64,000 nucleotides of DNA from Thermosynechococcus sp. (GTDB lineage Bacteria; Cyanobacteriota; Cyanobacteriia; Thermosynechococcales; Thermosynechococcaceae): positions 837,527-901,526 of the forward strand of contig NZ_AP024678.1 in assembly GCF_025999095.1 (NCBI RefSeq), given 5' to 3'. The notes below the pieces were generated by a model, which did not search any database, was not told the DNA's origin, and was given only the letters and a program-made list of their open reading frames with translations. Shown here piece by piece: positions 4,295-9,859 of the stretch (the stretch's first letter is position 1; every line of letters begins with the position of its first letter). Position numbers and translations under genes: made by a program.

Positions 4295-4341
4295 GCCATT
4301 GCAGGTTATACTCTTTTGGGTAAGACTTGGCACCTCCACCT

Positions 4342-4878
4342 ATGGCTGTGTTTGAAGGCACCTATCAAGTTCTGGGAACGCCTCGCTTTGGCATTGTAAT
4401 TTCCCGCTTCAATGACCTAATTACGACCAAGCTGCTAGAGGGTTGCCAAGATTGTCTGCGTCGTCATGGCGTTGATCCCAGTCCCCATGGTTCTCAAGTG
4501 GACTATGCTTGGGTACCCGGTAGTTTTGAAATTCCCCTTGTGGCAGCTCAACTGGCCGCTAGTCGTCGCTATGCTGCTATCATTTGTCTAGGGGCCGTCA
4601 TCCGTGGCCAAACCCCCCACTTTGACTATGTGGCTGCGGAAGTCACCAAAGGCATTGCCGCTGCCTCCATGCAAACGGGGGTGCCCATTATCTACGGCAT
4701 TCTCACCACCGACACCATGCAGCAGGCCCTTGAGCGAGCAGGTATTAAAAGCAATAAAGGCTGGGAATATGCCCTCAATGCCTTGGAAATGGCAAACCTG
4801 ATGCAAACCCTCGCCAGCGCCATCAATCCACCAACAACCAAACTCAGCCCCAGTGCTCGTGTTCTCACGGATGGGTAA
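4342..4878 (+). CDS. ribH: 6,7-dimethyl-8-ribityllumazine synthase
   Basis: RibH condenses 5-amino-6-ribitylaminouracil with dihydroxybutanone phosphate in the penultimate step of riboflavin synthesis and forms large icosahedral or pentameric shells. Family motifs are [41 protein letters not shown] (with the catalytic-region histidine) and [14 protein letters not shown] lysine-rich patch (KSNKGWEYA) follows as expected. ATG 4342 fits the family N-terminus; a TTG at 4327 would add five residues. The C-terminus has about 20 extra residues beyond the usual helix, low in complexity. It ends 34 bases from the convergent CHAT gene. Confidence 0.95.
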
Positions 4879-4912: not shown

Positions 4913-7900
4913 CTACCAAGGGCTACCAATCATCGTAAACCCTGCCCAAAAGTATGGATGAGAAAGTAGACGCCTACCTCCAGTTTGAACTTCTTGGGGC
5001 AAAGGAATCGAAAGCCCTCCCTGCAGTCCAGCACTGCGCAGATGATTCTCCTCAATCACAACCTGCCGGTGGATCATGGCAAGCTGGGCCTGTCGCAGGG
5101 CCTCTGCTTTAATCGGAGCAGTTCTCAACTGGCCATAAAATGCCGTCATCAAGGCCAGTGTCCCTTCATCACTGACATACCAAAGGCTGGCCACAGAACT
5201 CTTCACCCCCGCTTGCAGCGACAGTCCGGCAAACCCAAGTTCTGCGTTGATATCTCCTACCGCTGTGCGACAGGCACTCAGGGTCATGAGCTCTGTGGGT
5301 GGCCGGAATAAACGCAACTGCCGTAATTGAGCCATTGAAAGCTGCCTATCCCAAAACTGAATATAAGAATTTTGTGGCTTACCTGGATTAAATTCAGCAT
5401 GGGTCGCCAGATGCAGGATAGGGTAGAGACTGCGCCGCCGCTGGCTTTCCAGGTTTGAGACCGTAAAAGCTTCATTGAGGAATACTTGCCCTTGACCTAC
5501 CACTTGAGTAATTGTTTGTAGCTCGATAGGAGCTGCTGGCAAAGGACTTTGATCTGTGAACTTGGAGGCGCCCATTGCCAATACCGAGGCGTTTTGCAAC
5601 GGCTGGTAGCGGGTATCCACCAAGTTGATACTGGGAATGAGAGCCAGGTTATAGCGTTCCACTAGAAACTGACCATTACGACCTATTGGACTATCACTAA
5701 CTGTCGAGGAAATAAGATTTGACCCTGTGTGCAAAGCAGCCAGCGGCATAGTCCGTAACCCCTCATCAAGGGCAAAAACCAGCGTATTAATGCCTCGTGC
5801 TTGCAACTCAGGATCAACACTACCCATGATCCATTGGTAGAGCTGCTGCGCGAAGGGTAGATAGGATTCGCTATTGGTTTTTCTTGGATCTCGCACCTCT
5901 TGGTTAAAGGCAGCAATGACGCGACGCACTGTTTCTTGGGGCACTTGAACGGGTTGATAAATAGGTTCCCCTTGAGGTGTAATGATGAAAATATCTAACT
6001 GTTTAGGTCGCCAAAAGACATAGCTTAGCGCAGGTTTTTGACCTGTTTCTTGAGCTATACGCCCCAATAATTCTTTGATTTGATCAATATCAAAGAACTG
6101 TAGTCCCCCTTGGCCAGGAGTACTCAAAAATTCACCAAAGTACTCACTAAACTCAAAGGAATAAAGCTGCTGAAGCAGTTTGATAGCACTGTTGTAATCT
6201 CCCTGATCAAAAGCGGCACTGATTTGCTGACGGATGGTATCAACTCCGGGGAAGTAAACGACTTGAGCAGTATTCTGGGGCAGTTGAGTGCTTTGTATCT
6301 CCTGGCCAAGTAAAATTTGACCTAGATCTTCTTGAATTTGGGATTCTGGAGGTACTGGTGGGGGTGTGGGTGTTTCCGAGGGTGGGGATTCTGGAGGTAC
6401 TGGTGGGGGTGCCTGAGAAACTCGATAGAGAAAACCAGAACCAGAAAATAGAGCAGGCTGAGGATAGGTGGCGTTGAATTGCTCTGAACCCGTGAGGCCG
6501 CCCTTGATATTAAGATTCGGGTCAGTTGAATAAACTAGCCAGCGACCGTTGGGGGTACTGAAGACATTTGGACCATAGTTGTTAATAAAGTTCTCTTGCG
6601 CAACAAGGACAATCGCATCCCCGGTCCCAACAGCAGAAATTGGCGCATTGAGAACAATATCGCCTGCTAATGTTTGCAGAAAAACATTGCGCGCTGTAAT
6701 GCCCGTTGGGTTAACACTGCCAACGGTAAGGGAGCCGTTATTAACGAATCGAAGATCCCCAGAACTGTTCAACTGAGCAGCAAGTGTGCCCACTTGGTTA
6801 TCGGGGTTAGTTAGAGTTGCACTGCCATTTTGTAGGAGCAAGCCCAAGCTGCCGGATCGGATAGGCGCGCTCTGGGTTAGATCACCACTGGCTAAGTTAA
6901 GGATTAAGGTATTGCCATTTGTGTTGATACCAGTAGTGAGACCATTGACACCATTGTTGAAACTGACGATACCTAGAGCGCCTTGATTACTCAAGTTCAC
7001 ATTGCCAGTGACATTTCCTGAGAGTGCCTGAAAGTCATTGTTGGCATTGTTGAGGGTGAAAGGTCCCTGTCCGAGGAGTTGGAGTGTTCCCCCAGAAATG
7101 GCATGGCTCCCCTGAGTAACGCCGCCACCGCTATTGAGTGTCAGATTACGACCATTGAGATTCGTCGCGCCAGAGCCATTGAAACGAATACCTTGGGAGC
7201 CTGGCGCAGGAGTTTGTAGGGCAAGATTGTAGTTGAGGCTGAAGGGGCGAACATCAATCAAACCAGTACCACTAGGGTGACCGATGGTAATTAATGAGAA
7301 GCCACCGGTGATTCCGTTGAGGAGAAACTGATTAACGATTAAGTCACCCGTCGCACCATCGCCAAGGCCAACAGGGGTAGCGGCATCAATCGGTTGAAAG
7401 ATAAGGCGGCCTGCTCCGCCACTGTAGATATTTAGATTTAGATCATCTAGGTCACTAGAGACGTCAATCCCCCCTTGGGCTGCTAATGTAAGCACGCCAT
7501 CTCGAACAGCTAGTGTCAGCCAGCCAGAGCCCTGCATGACCAGACCCTCATTACCACCCGTGCCGCGACCTTCAATGAGGATATTGCCATTGCCAGCCGT
7601 TGTGATTTCGGCAGGGTAGCTGGTATCAGTTGCTGCTTCTAAAAGAAAACCAACCCCGCCGGATTCGCCCCCTGTGCCCCTAAGGATGATGTTACCGCTC
7701 TCACTGTTAATGGATGTAGAGTAACTCCGAATACCGATACCCTCGTAATTCGCACCGCCAGTACCTGTAAGGGTAATATTCCCTGTCGTGGTTTGAATTT
7801 GTGACTCTTCAAGATAGATGCCAAAGTTGGAAAATACTTCAGAGCCTAAGCCGCCGCCCGTGCCGGTCAAGGTAAGATTGCCAGCCTCGGCCCTGATTGA

Positions 7901-9859
7901 GGAGTTCTGAATTGAGATACCATCCAAAACGGTAAAAACACTACCACCTGTCCCTAGAATGGTGATCTCCCCAGATCCGGAGGTGAGGATTGAACTGTTG
8001 CTGATCTCTACCCCCATAGTGTATTCACTGCTGCCATGAATCCTAATATGGCCACCACCTGCATTGAGGATAGAGAATTGGATATCAACCCCAGCATTGG
8101 CCGGGGTGACACCGATCGCTGGACTGGTGAGAGGATTAGAACCGCCCCCCAAAACAATATTGCCACCGTTAGAAATAAGTGAGACTGAGCTTAATTGAAT
8201 GGCACCGGCACCGTTGTTATCAGCATCGGCATGGAGAATGATATTTAGTCGGCCTGCTTGTGATTGAATGTCATAATTAACAGAAATGTTATTTGCGGCT
8301 TGGAACGTTAGGGAGGCGTCGCCCCCTGCTGTCTTGATAATAGGAGCAGCAATAGAAATATTACCCTCTTGGCTTCCAGTATCACCAGTTGTGATGATGA
8401 CACTAGTCCCGGAATTCAGAGCAGCTTCAATGGCGGTATTCCCAACAGAGGCATTATCACCTGTGGGGGTAAAAATATCAGGGTTGGCACCAGAAAATGT
8501 ACCGTTACTGGTGCCGCTGCTAATGGTGACATTGCGTGGGTCAAGGAGCCATGTACCGGACTGACCATTAGCTGCAGTGGCATCTACTGTTCCCCAAACG
8601 CTCAGTAATTCTCGACCGGAGGTTTCAACAAAGCCCCCATTACCGCCAAGTTGACCGCCGCGTGCAGTGATAGTGCCGCCAAATTGAGTGCTGTTGTCTG
8701 CCCATGCAATGACGGTGCCGCCATTGCCTTGATTGACGGCATCCGCTGCAATCACGCTCCCACTGTTGATAAAGAGGTTACGGGCATTGAAGCTGCTATC
8801 CAGTCGATTGGTGCCTGTTGTTCCCCCGCGGTAATCGCCCCCTAAGAGAATCGTGCCACCACCGAATTGACCAGAAGCAGTTAAGTTGGTATTGATAAGG
8901 GCGATATGTTGACCGGTGATCGTGATTTTGCCACCAGTACCTATGGGATTGGCGACGGAAAGGCTGCCACTGATGACGGCGGTGTTGGTTGTGGTGGGGA
9001 TTTTACTGGGGTCATGGACAAGGTGAATGGTGCCATCGGGGTTTTGAATGACGCTGTTGACGGGTTGTGAACCATTGCCGGTGAGTAAGCTGGGTAACTC
9101 CACAGCAGCGATCGCTCCTCCAGAGGGTAGTCGCTCCTGAGGAATCTCAAGACTGAGCAGCATTCCCTCTTGGGAGACCCGCACCATTCCTGTTTCAGGC
9201 ACAGCTGTAATGTGGATATTGCCGGCGGGCGCTGCGAGTGTACCCGTATTGATCACTTGGTGTGCCATTAGGCTGAGGCTTTGACCGTTACCAACCCTCA
9301 GCTCGCCTTCATTGATGATGAGGCCTTTACTCAGGAATTCAAAGCCTATGGGCTGACCATTGAGGGCTGCATAGAGGTTCTGGCCATTGACATCAAAAAC
9401 CCCTCCTTCAAACAGCACCCGTTGAGCGGTGGCGGCATGGAAAGCAGCGGGGAGATTCAAGCGGGCATTGGGGCCAAAAACGATCCCCGCAGGGTTGAGC
9501 AGATACAGGTTACTGTTGCCACCTGTGATTTGAATCAAGCCATTGATATAACTGGCGTTGCCACCATTGACGCCCGCAAGAATGTTGCGAATTTGCGGAT
9601 TAGAGAGAAAGTTGACGATTTGGCCATTGCCAACATTGAAGTTACGGAAGAGGTGAAAGAGATTTTGACCATTCGCCGATAGGCTGCCACCGCTAATATC
9701 AATCTGTTGACCATTGTGGATGACGGTGGTGTTAGTGCCATTGATAGCTGGGGTGATCTGGCTGTAAACAGCGCCACTGCACAGTCCCCCAAAGGCTAAG
9801 GCAATGGTAAATAGATACCGTTGTAGAGTTTTCACGATTCTAGTCTCCAGATAATTCAT
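4913..9859 (-). CDS. secreted filamentous-haemagglutinin-type protein with C-terminal CHAT protease domain
   Basis: From ATG 9857-9859 the protein has about 1,648 residues. A basic, hydrophobic signal sequence is followed by a two-partner-secretion domain (VNFLSNPQIRNILAGVNGG; LYLLNPAGIVFGPNARLNLP). About 900 residues then resemble beta-helix repeats rich in G, N, T and S (ITLTGTGG, ILRGTGG). A proline-rich linker (PPPVPPES twice) leads to a CHAT domain. Its expected catalytic histidine is in LATHAEF (codon 5399-5401) and cysteine in LSACRTA (codon 5270-5272), followed by GFAGLSLQAGVKSSVASLW. An earlier in-frame start at 9919 is less likely because AGAGG sits before 9859. No TpsB transporter gene is nearby. 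Domain calls are secure; substrate and location are unknown. Confidence 0.88.
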   Translation of the reverse strand: MNYLETRIVKTLQRYLFTIALAFGGLCSGAVYSQITPAINGTNTTVIHNGQQIDISGGSLSANGQNLFHLFRNFNVGNGQIVNFLSNPQIRNILAGVNGGNASYINGLIQITGGNSNLYLLNPAGIVFGPNARLNLPAAFHAATAQRVLFEGGVFDVNGQNLYAALNGQPIGFEFLSKGLIINEGELRVGNGQSLSLMAHQVINTGTLAAPAGNIHITAVPETGMVRVSQEGMLLSLEIPQERLPSGGAIAAVELPSLLTGNGSQPVNSVIQNPDGTIHLVHDPSKIPTTTNTAVISGSLSVANPIGTGGKITITGQHIALINTNLTASGQFGGGTILLGGDYRGGTTGTNRLDSSFNARNLFINSGSVIAADAVNQGNGGTVIAWADNSTQFGGTITARGGQLGGNGGFVETSGRELLSVWGTVDATAANGQSGTWLLDPRNVTISSGTSNGTFSGANPDIFTPTGDNASVGNTAIEAALNSGTSVIITTGDTGSQEGNISIAAPIIKTAGGDASLTFQAANNISVNYDIQSQAGRLNIILHADADNNGAGAIQLSSVSLISNGGNIVLGGGSNPLTSPAIGVTPANAGVDIQFSILNAGGGHIRIHGSSEYTMGVEISNSSILTSGSGEITILGTGGSVFTVLDGISIQNSSIRAEAGNLTLTGTGGGLGSEVFSNFGIYLEESQIQTTTGNITLTGTGGANYEGIGIRSYSTSINSESGNIILRGTGGESGGVGFLLEAATDTSYPAEITTAGNGNILIEGRGTGGNEGLVMQGSGWLTLAVRDGVLTLAAQGGIDVSSDLDDLNLNIYSGGAGRLIFQPIDAATPVGLGDGATGDLIVNQFLLNGITGGFSLITIGHPSGTGLIDVRPFSLNYNLALQTPAPGSQGIRFNGSGATNLNGRNLTLNSGGGVTQGSHAISGGTLQLLGQGPFTLNNANNDFQALSGNVTGNVNLSNQGALGIVSFNNGVNGLTTGINTNGNTLILNLASGDLTQSAPIRSGSLGLLLQNGSATLTNPDNQVGTLAAQLNSSGDLRFVNNGSLTVGSVNPTGITARNVFLQTLAGDIVLNAPISAVGTGDAIVLVAQENFINNYGPNVFSTPNGRWLVYSTDPNLNIKGGLTGSEQFNATYPQPALFSGSGFLYRVSQAPPPVPPESPPSETPTPPPVPPESQIQEDLGQILLGQEIQSTQLPQNTAQVVYFPGVDTIRQQISAAFDQGDYNSAIKLLQQLYSFEFSEYFGEFLSTPGQGGLQFFDIDQIKELLGRIAQETGQKPALSYVFWRPKQLDIFIITPQGEPIYQPVQVPQETVRRVIAAFNQEVRDPRKTNSESYLPFAQQLYQWIMGSVDPELQARGINTLVFALDEGLRTMPLAALHTGSNLISSTVSDSPIGRNGQFLVERYNLALIPSINLVDTRYQPLQNASVLAMGASKFTDQSPLPAAPIELQTITQVVGQGQVFLNEAFTVSNLESQRRRSLYPILHLATHAEFNPGKPQNSYIQFWDRQLSMAQLRQLRLFRPPTELMTLSACRTAVGDINAELGFAGLSLQAGVKSSVASLWYVSDEGTLALMTAFYGQLRTAPIKAEALRQAQLAMIHRQVVIEENHLRSAGLQGGLSIPLPQEVQTGGRRLLSHPYFWAGFTMIGSPW
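6340..6411 (-). repeat. two 27-bp direct repeats encoding the proline-rich linker
   Basis: Bases 6340-6366 and 6385-6411 are near-identical copies 45 bases apart. On the minus strand they encode PPPVPPES twice, the flexible joint between the beta-helix and CHAT domains. The 45-base period keeps the frame, so copy-number change would lengthen the linker by 15 residues per unit. Confidence 0.8.

Follow-up and report, generated by a model that had tools for sequence, protein, structure and literature searches.

A haemagglutinin-like exoprotein ending in a CHAT domain in Thermosynechococcus, and the ties between CHAT and two-partner secretion in cyanobacteria

Gene and domain architecture

A 64,000-nucleotide stretch of the genome of Thermosynechococcus sp. 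(contig NZ_AP024678.1, positions 837,527 to 901,526; hereafter the window) carries on its reverse strand a single open frame, 4913-9859, for a protein that begins with a two-partner secretion (TPS) domain and ends with a CHAT domain. The gene is referred to below as the TPS-CHAT gene. Counted from ATG 9859, on which the residue numbers are based, the frame has 1648 codons. ATG 9859 is not kept in the orthologues G004A and G007A, whereas GTG 9835 (MKTLQRYLF...) corresponds to a V or M codon in orthologues, is preceded by GGAG and opens a typical signal peptide. Translation therefore probably starts at GTG 9835, which gives a protein of ~1640 aa. The features of the locus are as follows.

4913..9859, reverse strand: TPS-CHAT gene, 1648 aa from ATG 9859, ~1640 aa from the likely start GTG 9835
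9758..9835, reverse strand: predicted Sec signal peptide, MKTLQRYLFTIALAFGGLCSGAVYSQ, read by eye; hydrophobic N-termini are conserved in orthologues
9140..9739, reverse strand: TPS secretion domain, residues 41-240 (PF05860, E=8.6e-32; TIGR01901), with an NPAG motif at residue 122
6425..9739, reverse strand: beta-helix shaft including the TPS domain, residues 41-1145; EtpA match over residues 59-729, remainder by composition
6344..6421, reverse strand: proline-rich linker, residues 1147-1172, 50% Pro, poorly conserved
5858..6274, reverse strand: helical pre-CHAT region, residues 1196-1334, conserved with paralogue B
4922..5857, reverse strand: CHAT domain, residues 1335-1646 (PF12770, E=8.9e-70), within the modelled residues 1170-1648 (pLDDT 90.4)
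5399..5401, reverse strand: codon of the predicted catalytic His1487 (LATHAEF), invariant in 24/24 and 86/86 sequences
5270..5272, reverse strand: codon of the predicted catalytic Cys1530 (LSACRTA), invariant, sole Cys of the mature protein
4327..4878, forward strand: ribH-like flanking gene (lumazine synthase by sequence), outside the system; synteny in L044, L045, L046 and L050
10024..11040, forward strand: asd-like flanking gene (aspartate-semialdehyde dehydrogenase by sequence), outside the system; synteny in the same four loci

Only two Pfam domains of the protein exceed the cut-off, TPS (PF05860) and CHAT (PF12770), the latter covered at model positions 2-289 of 289. NCBIfam TIGR01901 matches residues 68-146 (E=1.9e-22), and residues 59-729 of the beta-helix match the solved TpsA protein EtpA (8vba, E=5.8e-45). 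The preliminary description of the locus had proposed a filamentous-haemagglutinin (FHA) beta-helix and a C-terminal CHAT domain in one gene, joined by a proline-rich linker and presumably exported; all of these are borne out, export by the TPS domain together with the predicted signal peptide. The predicted architecture of a TpsA-type exoprotein with a C-terminal CHAT is well supported. Likeness to the TpsA proteins EtpA, FHA/FhaB, HMW1 and CdrA extends to the signal peptide, the TPS domain with NPxG, the long beta-helix and the (here predicted) export by TpsB, and in FhaB also to a Pro-rich region ahead of the C-terminal part. The window protein differs from them in its CHAT end, its unlinked TpsB gene and its want of a Cys hook. 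The linker, 26 aa long in the window gene, consists in the G007 orthologue (L046) of ~290 aa of a PSTPPTPPTE-type repeat.

Fold, dyad and cysteines of the CHAT domain

The C-terminal region, whose fold the preliminary description had left to structure prediction, was modelled over residues 1170-1648 with AlphaFold2 from an 82-row alignment (predicted local distance difference test, pLDDT, 90.4; predicted TM-score, pTM, 0.89). In the model the His lies in strand 312-321 and the Cys in strand 355-363, an order that fits a caspase-like fold. The assignment to this fold is made because of the Pfam match, the model confidence, the strand order and the dyad. Against solved structures, the subfamily profile retrieved no CHAT structure, and a tetratricopeptide repeat (TPR)-CHAT paralogue had only TPR proteins among its best 60 matches.

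The motifs LATHAEF and LSACRTA begin at residues 1484 and 1527 and place the dyad at H1487/C1530. Both residues are identical in 24/24 rows of an alignment from a whole-genome search and in 86/86 sequences of a second alignment, where the invariance of the His is partly by construction, the scan pattern having contained HLATH, and the Cys lies outside that pattern. The pair had been called intact beforehand, and it is nowhere disrupted on alignment. The ratio of nonsynonymous to synonymous substitution rates (dN/dS) is lowest for CHAT of all parts of the protein, 0.045-0.14 vs 0.12-0.31 for the helix. C1530 is the only Cys of the mature window protein. Of 46 fusions that are complete, 28 have no Cys other than that of the active site and 43 have an odd number of cysteines, the pattern expected if an exported protein combines a single free reactive Cys with disulfides.

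The domain shares with the Craspase TPR-CHAT protease of type III-E CRISPR (dyad H585/C627; PMC9729208) and with eukaryotic separase the CHAT family, the His/Cys dyad and the placement of His and Cys on successive main strands. It differs from them in that TPR and CRISPR are absent and the protein is predicted to be exported. CHAT is likely an active His/Cys peptidase (clan CD, separase-like). It could instead be a binding, structural or plug domain rather than a working protease, given that catalysis is here read from sequence; to our knowledge, few CHAT proteins have been characterised so far. This alternative is judged unlikely, since His and Cys are invariant in the 86 sequences, a lone free Cys is kept in otherwise almost Cys-free proteins, and the dN/dS of CHAT is the lowest of the protein.

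A TpsA scaffold that ends in an enzyme also recalls contact-dependent growth inhibition (CDI), in which case CHAT would be a CdiA-CT toxin delivered into neighbouring cells. CdiA-CTs are polymorphic, whereas CHAT is the most conserved domain of this protein. Pfam finds no CDI domain in it, and its neighbours are the conserved ribH and asd, with ribH, the next gene, on the opposite strand; the earlier statement that no immunity gene lies nearby agrees with this. On the conserved C-terminus and the want of an immunity gene and of a CDI domain, the contact-dependent role that had been suggested is rejected, and a CDI toxin is very improbable.

CHAT genes of the source genome

The source genome is complete (2,497,893 bases) and has four CHAT genes: the window gene (A), a paralogue (B) and two TPR-CHAT genes. 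Paralogue B, of 489 aa, comprises a signal peptide and CHAT and is 57% identical to A over the C-terminal region. Because all four proteins carry apparent signal peptides, CHAT would be an extracytoplasmic family in this organism.

This bears on the role in defence and death raised by the preliminary description. Known CHAT proteases do act in the cytosol (PMC9729208), and the window protein could be a defence or death protease as in the Craspase or gasdermin systems, its TPS part being incidental. The signal peptide, the TPS domain and a partner TpsB (see below) speak against this, as does the exported appearance of all four CHATs. PADLOC returns only a weak match for the window protein (BovA, E=0.0016), and the adjacent genes are housekeeping-like by sequence. 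With a protein predicted to be exported and so weak a match, cytosolic defence is rejected as a most improbable explanation.

The solitary TpsB as partner

It had been noted that no TpsB partner lies nearby. This is true of the window, but a genome-wide search overturns the absence of a partner: two TpsB genes lie elsewhere in the source genome. One adjoins the gene of a 2847-aa TpsA. The other, at C1:316634, is solitary, has POTRA_2 and ShlB domains and belongs to the class associated with TPS-CHAT.

A contig scan found six TPS-CHAT loci with a TpsB close by, adjacent and divergent in five of the six. TpsBs near TPS-CHAT share 42-45% identity with the solitary TpsB, vs 24% for the other TpsB of the source genome. 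In a maximum-likelihood tree of 66 TpsBs, the solitary TpsB falls in a clade (99/93) that takes in 8 of the 10 TpsBs linked to a fusion and a total of 13 solitary TpsBs. Its sister clade (94/96) includes 15 of the 16 TpsBs that are linked to a separate (TPR-)CHAT, and none linked to a fusion. In G071, G083 and G092 the gene directly after a long CHAT-ended frame, in G071 a TPS-CHAT, codes for a TpsB that has 42-47% identity to the solitary TpsB; G035 and G059, of the same genus as G071, have neither TPS-CHAT nor TpsB. The TpsB at C1:316634 is a well-supported candidate partner of the window protein, a pairing that we infer, the genes being unlinked. The longest CHAT-ended frame seen, of 5616 aa, has its CHAT end at G092:C1:1795497-1796612, with the TpsB next to it.

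CHAT and two-partner secretion across cyanobacteria

The TPS-CHAT fusion occurs in many public genomes and is widespread in cyanobacteria, in line with the earlier remark that related fusions exist there. CHAT is tied to two-partner secretion in three ways: by fusion to TpsA, as a gene neighbouring TpsB, and by co-occurrence. Within 62 TpsB neighbourhoods a CHAT gene is present in 21, vs 2.8 expected, and lies <=500 bp from TpsB in 17, vs 0.22 expected; the 17 include 4 TPS-CHAT fusions and 13 separate genes. The same-strand order TPS, TpsB, CHAT recurs in many loci, e.g. L151, L152, L153, L188, L193 and L201. The separate CHATs beside TpsB mostly have a hydrophobic, signal-peptide-like N-terminal segment by a crude measure, which finds none in the first open reading frame of L157 or in that of L182.

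Co-occurrence was counted in 146 genomes (completeness cut-off 95%; CHAT type at E<=1e-50). TpsB is present in 99 of the 100 genomes with this CHAT type (Fisher p=1.6e-14), although p values overstate the case because the genomes without TpsB include many small and related ones. At E<=1e-70 the CHAT type is found in 0 of 26 TpsB-lacking genomes.

At six loci (L065, L084, L096, L108, L121 and L141) CHAT or TPS-CHAT genes stand in tandem, which suggests local duplication.

Loci A and B within the genus

Locus A, the site of the window gene, has a full TPS-CHAT gene in G001, G003, G004, G007 and G010. In G008 a contig end truncates it, in G002 it is frameshifted, and in G005 an 87-codon remnant lies between ribH and asd (L050:6152-6412). 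The frameshift in G002 (L045, ~8820) falls at a G run and splits the orthologue by decay, slippage or sequencing error.

Locus B, the site of paralogue B, has a full TPS-CHAT gene in G001, G004, G005, G007 and G010. The form in G000 and G002 is a signal peptide plus CHAT, and G006 has a form shortened in another way. For the B CHAT, dN/dS is 0.06-0.07 in comparison with full B forms and 0.23 when G000 and G002 are compared. The shortening and the low dN/dS together imply that TPS and helix can be lost while the exported CHAT stays. Five locus B proteins (L055, L058, L059, L060 and L063) have two Cys ~11 residues apart just before CHAT, a pair that might be bonded into a small disulfide loop resembling the HMW1 or HxuA anchor.

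Eight of the ten sampled congeners (G001, G003-G008 and G010) have one TpsB each (PF03865), and the only TPS protein of G005 is a TPS-CHAT. G002 and G009 have more than one TpsB match, partly fragments, and in both the TPS-CHAT genes are either broken or without the TPS part. Frameshifts affect the solitary-type TpsB as well as TPS-CHAT A of G002, and in G009 the solitary-type TpsB is broken together with CHAT; sequencing error may account for either case.

Possible role of TPS-CHAT

Architecture, dyad, conservation and the genomic coupling of CHAT to TPS are supported by the sequences, and the coupling to a secretion pathway suggests that CHAT processes or controls a secreted protein rather than serving intracellular phage defence. 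A self-processing or signalling role, also mentioned in the preliminary description, is favoured over defence. The exoprotein would leave the cytoplasm via the Sec pathway and use the solitary TpsB (C1:316634) to cross the outer membrane, with the beta-helix displayed outside. CHAT, on a flexible Pro-rich tether, would be an active peptidase outside the cytoplasm. It would most likely face the periplasm, like the C-terminal parts of FhaB, HMW1 and CdrA, and could cleave itself or other TPS-exported proteins and so control their processing or release. To this reading as a whole, in which a TpsB-exported TpsA brings its own periplasm-facing CHAT for the processing or release of TPS proteins, about an even chance is given.

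Precedents exist for this proposal. The C-terminal prodomain of FhaB, including a Pro-rich region, is held in the periplasm, where proteases degrade or cut it and the shaft is released (PMC8263021). The C-terminal parts of HMW1, HxuA and CdrA are likewise kept in the periplasm, and the CdrA tail is cut by LapG (PMC5422565). SphB1, CtpA and DegP (for FhaB) and LapG (for CdrA) act outside the cytoplasm in the processing or release of TpsA proteins, as is proposed for CHAT; the CHAT protease differs in being part of TpsA or the product of a gene next to tpsB. Signal peptides occur in most separate CHATs next to TpsB and in the shortened copies of B, none of which has a TPS domain, and this is consistent with a periplasmic site. 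A periplasm-facing processing peptidase is favoured because it agrees equally with CHAT at the tail of TpsA, with the separate exported CHAT next to TpsB and with paralogue B in its shortened form.

Alternatively, the whole protein could be secreted or displayed, with CHAT an effector protease acting on foreign targets (cells, predators, phage or matrix). TpsA proteases do exist: LepA of Pseudomonas aeruginosa, likened here by role, is both a TpsA protein and a protease (PMC5422565), although the peptidase of the window protein would be CHAT. CHAT stands at the far end of the shaft on a Pro-rich stalk (the ~290-aa linker of G007 being the upper limit), and no Cys hook holds the C-terminus. Such an effector would leave unexplained the exported TPS-less TPR-CHATs beside TpsB and the TPS-less paralogue B under purifying selection. 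It is the main rival to the processing peptidase, and a doubtful one.

Several points weigh against a periplasm-facing processing peptidase coupled to TPS. The chance tests behind the expected counts ignore shared ancestry. TPR-type CHATs occur without TpsB (G035 has 6 PF12770 matches), so that TPS is no general requirement for CHAT. In separate CHATs next to TpsB the cysteine count is often even; the cysteine argument thus holds for fusions only, and parity as a general CHAT rule was dropped. The linker is poorly conserved in sequence and length, which argues against one fixed cis-cleavage site, and such a site in the linker is unsupported. As the window protein has no Cys-hook anchor, CHAT could be fully secreted, and its retention in the periplasm is unproven. 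Cleavage site and substrate are putative, and the frameshifts of G002 could be sequencing errors. Catalysis, periplasmic location and substrate are inferences here, of which catalysis is likely.

A wider and more tentative proposal is that exported CHATs, whether fused to TpsA or encoded by a neighbour of tpsB, are periplasm-facing and, upon engagement of the surface helix, cleave proteins exported by TPS or else a target in the periplasm. This is possible, if improbable. What is known of CHAT proteases concerns mainly defence and death inside the cell; the CHAT subfamily described here appears as a whole to be exported and tied to two-partner secretion, fused or neighbouring. If the proposal is true, it would describe a secretion-coupled protease system of cyanobacteria not described so far, in which an external event leads, by way of a separase-like protease, to release or signalling. 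The TPS-CHAT system also makes the question of retention versus release of TpsA proteins testable in harmless laboratory strains. The preliminary description had called the biology of such fusions little described, and a literature search limited to open papers and some preprints agrees, having found nothing that joins CHAT to haemagglutinin, two-partner secretion or the exoproteome. A survey of prokaryotic caspases (PMC3501461) mentions neither CHAT nor haemagglutinin.

Second TpsB locus of the source genome

The tpsB-tpsA pair of the source genome lies at C1:179671-190391 (L010:5672-16392), and its 2847-aa TpsA is made of long near-identical repeats. Next after the pair stands a gene pair for a response regulator and a histidine kinase.
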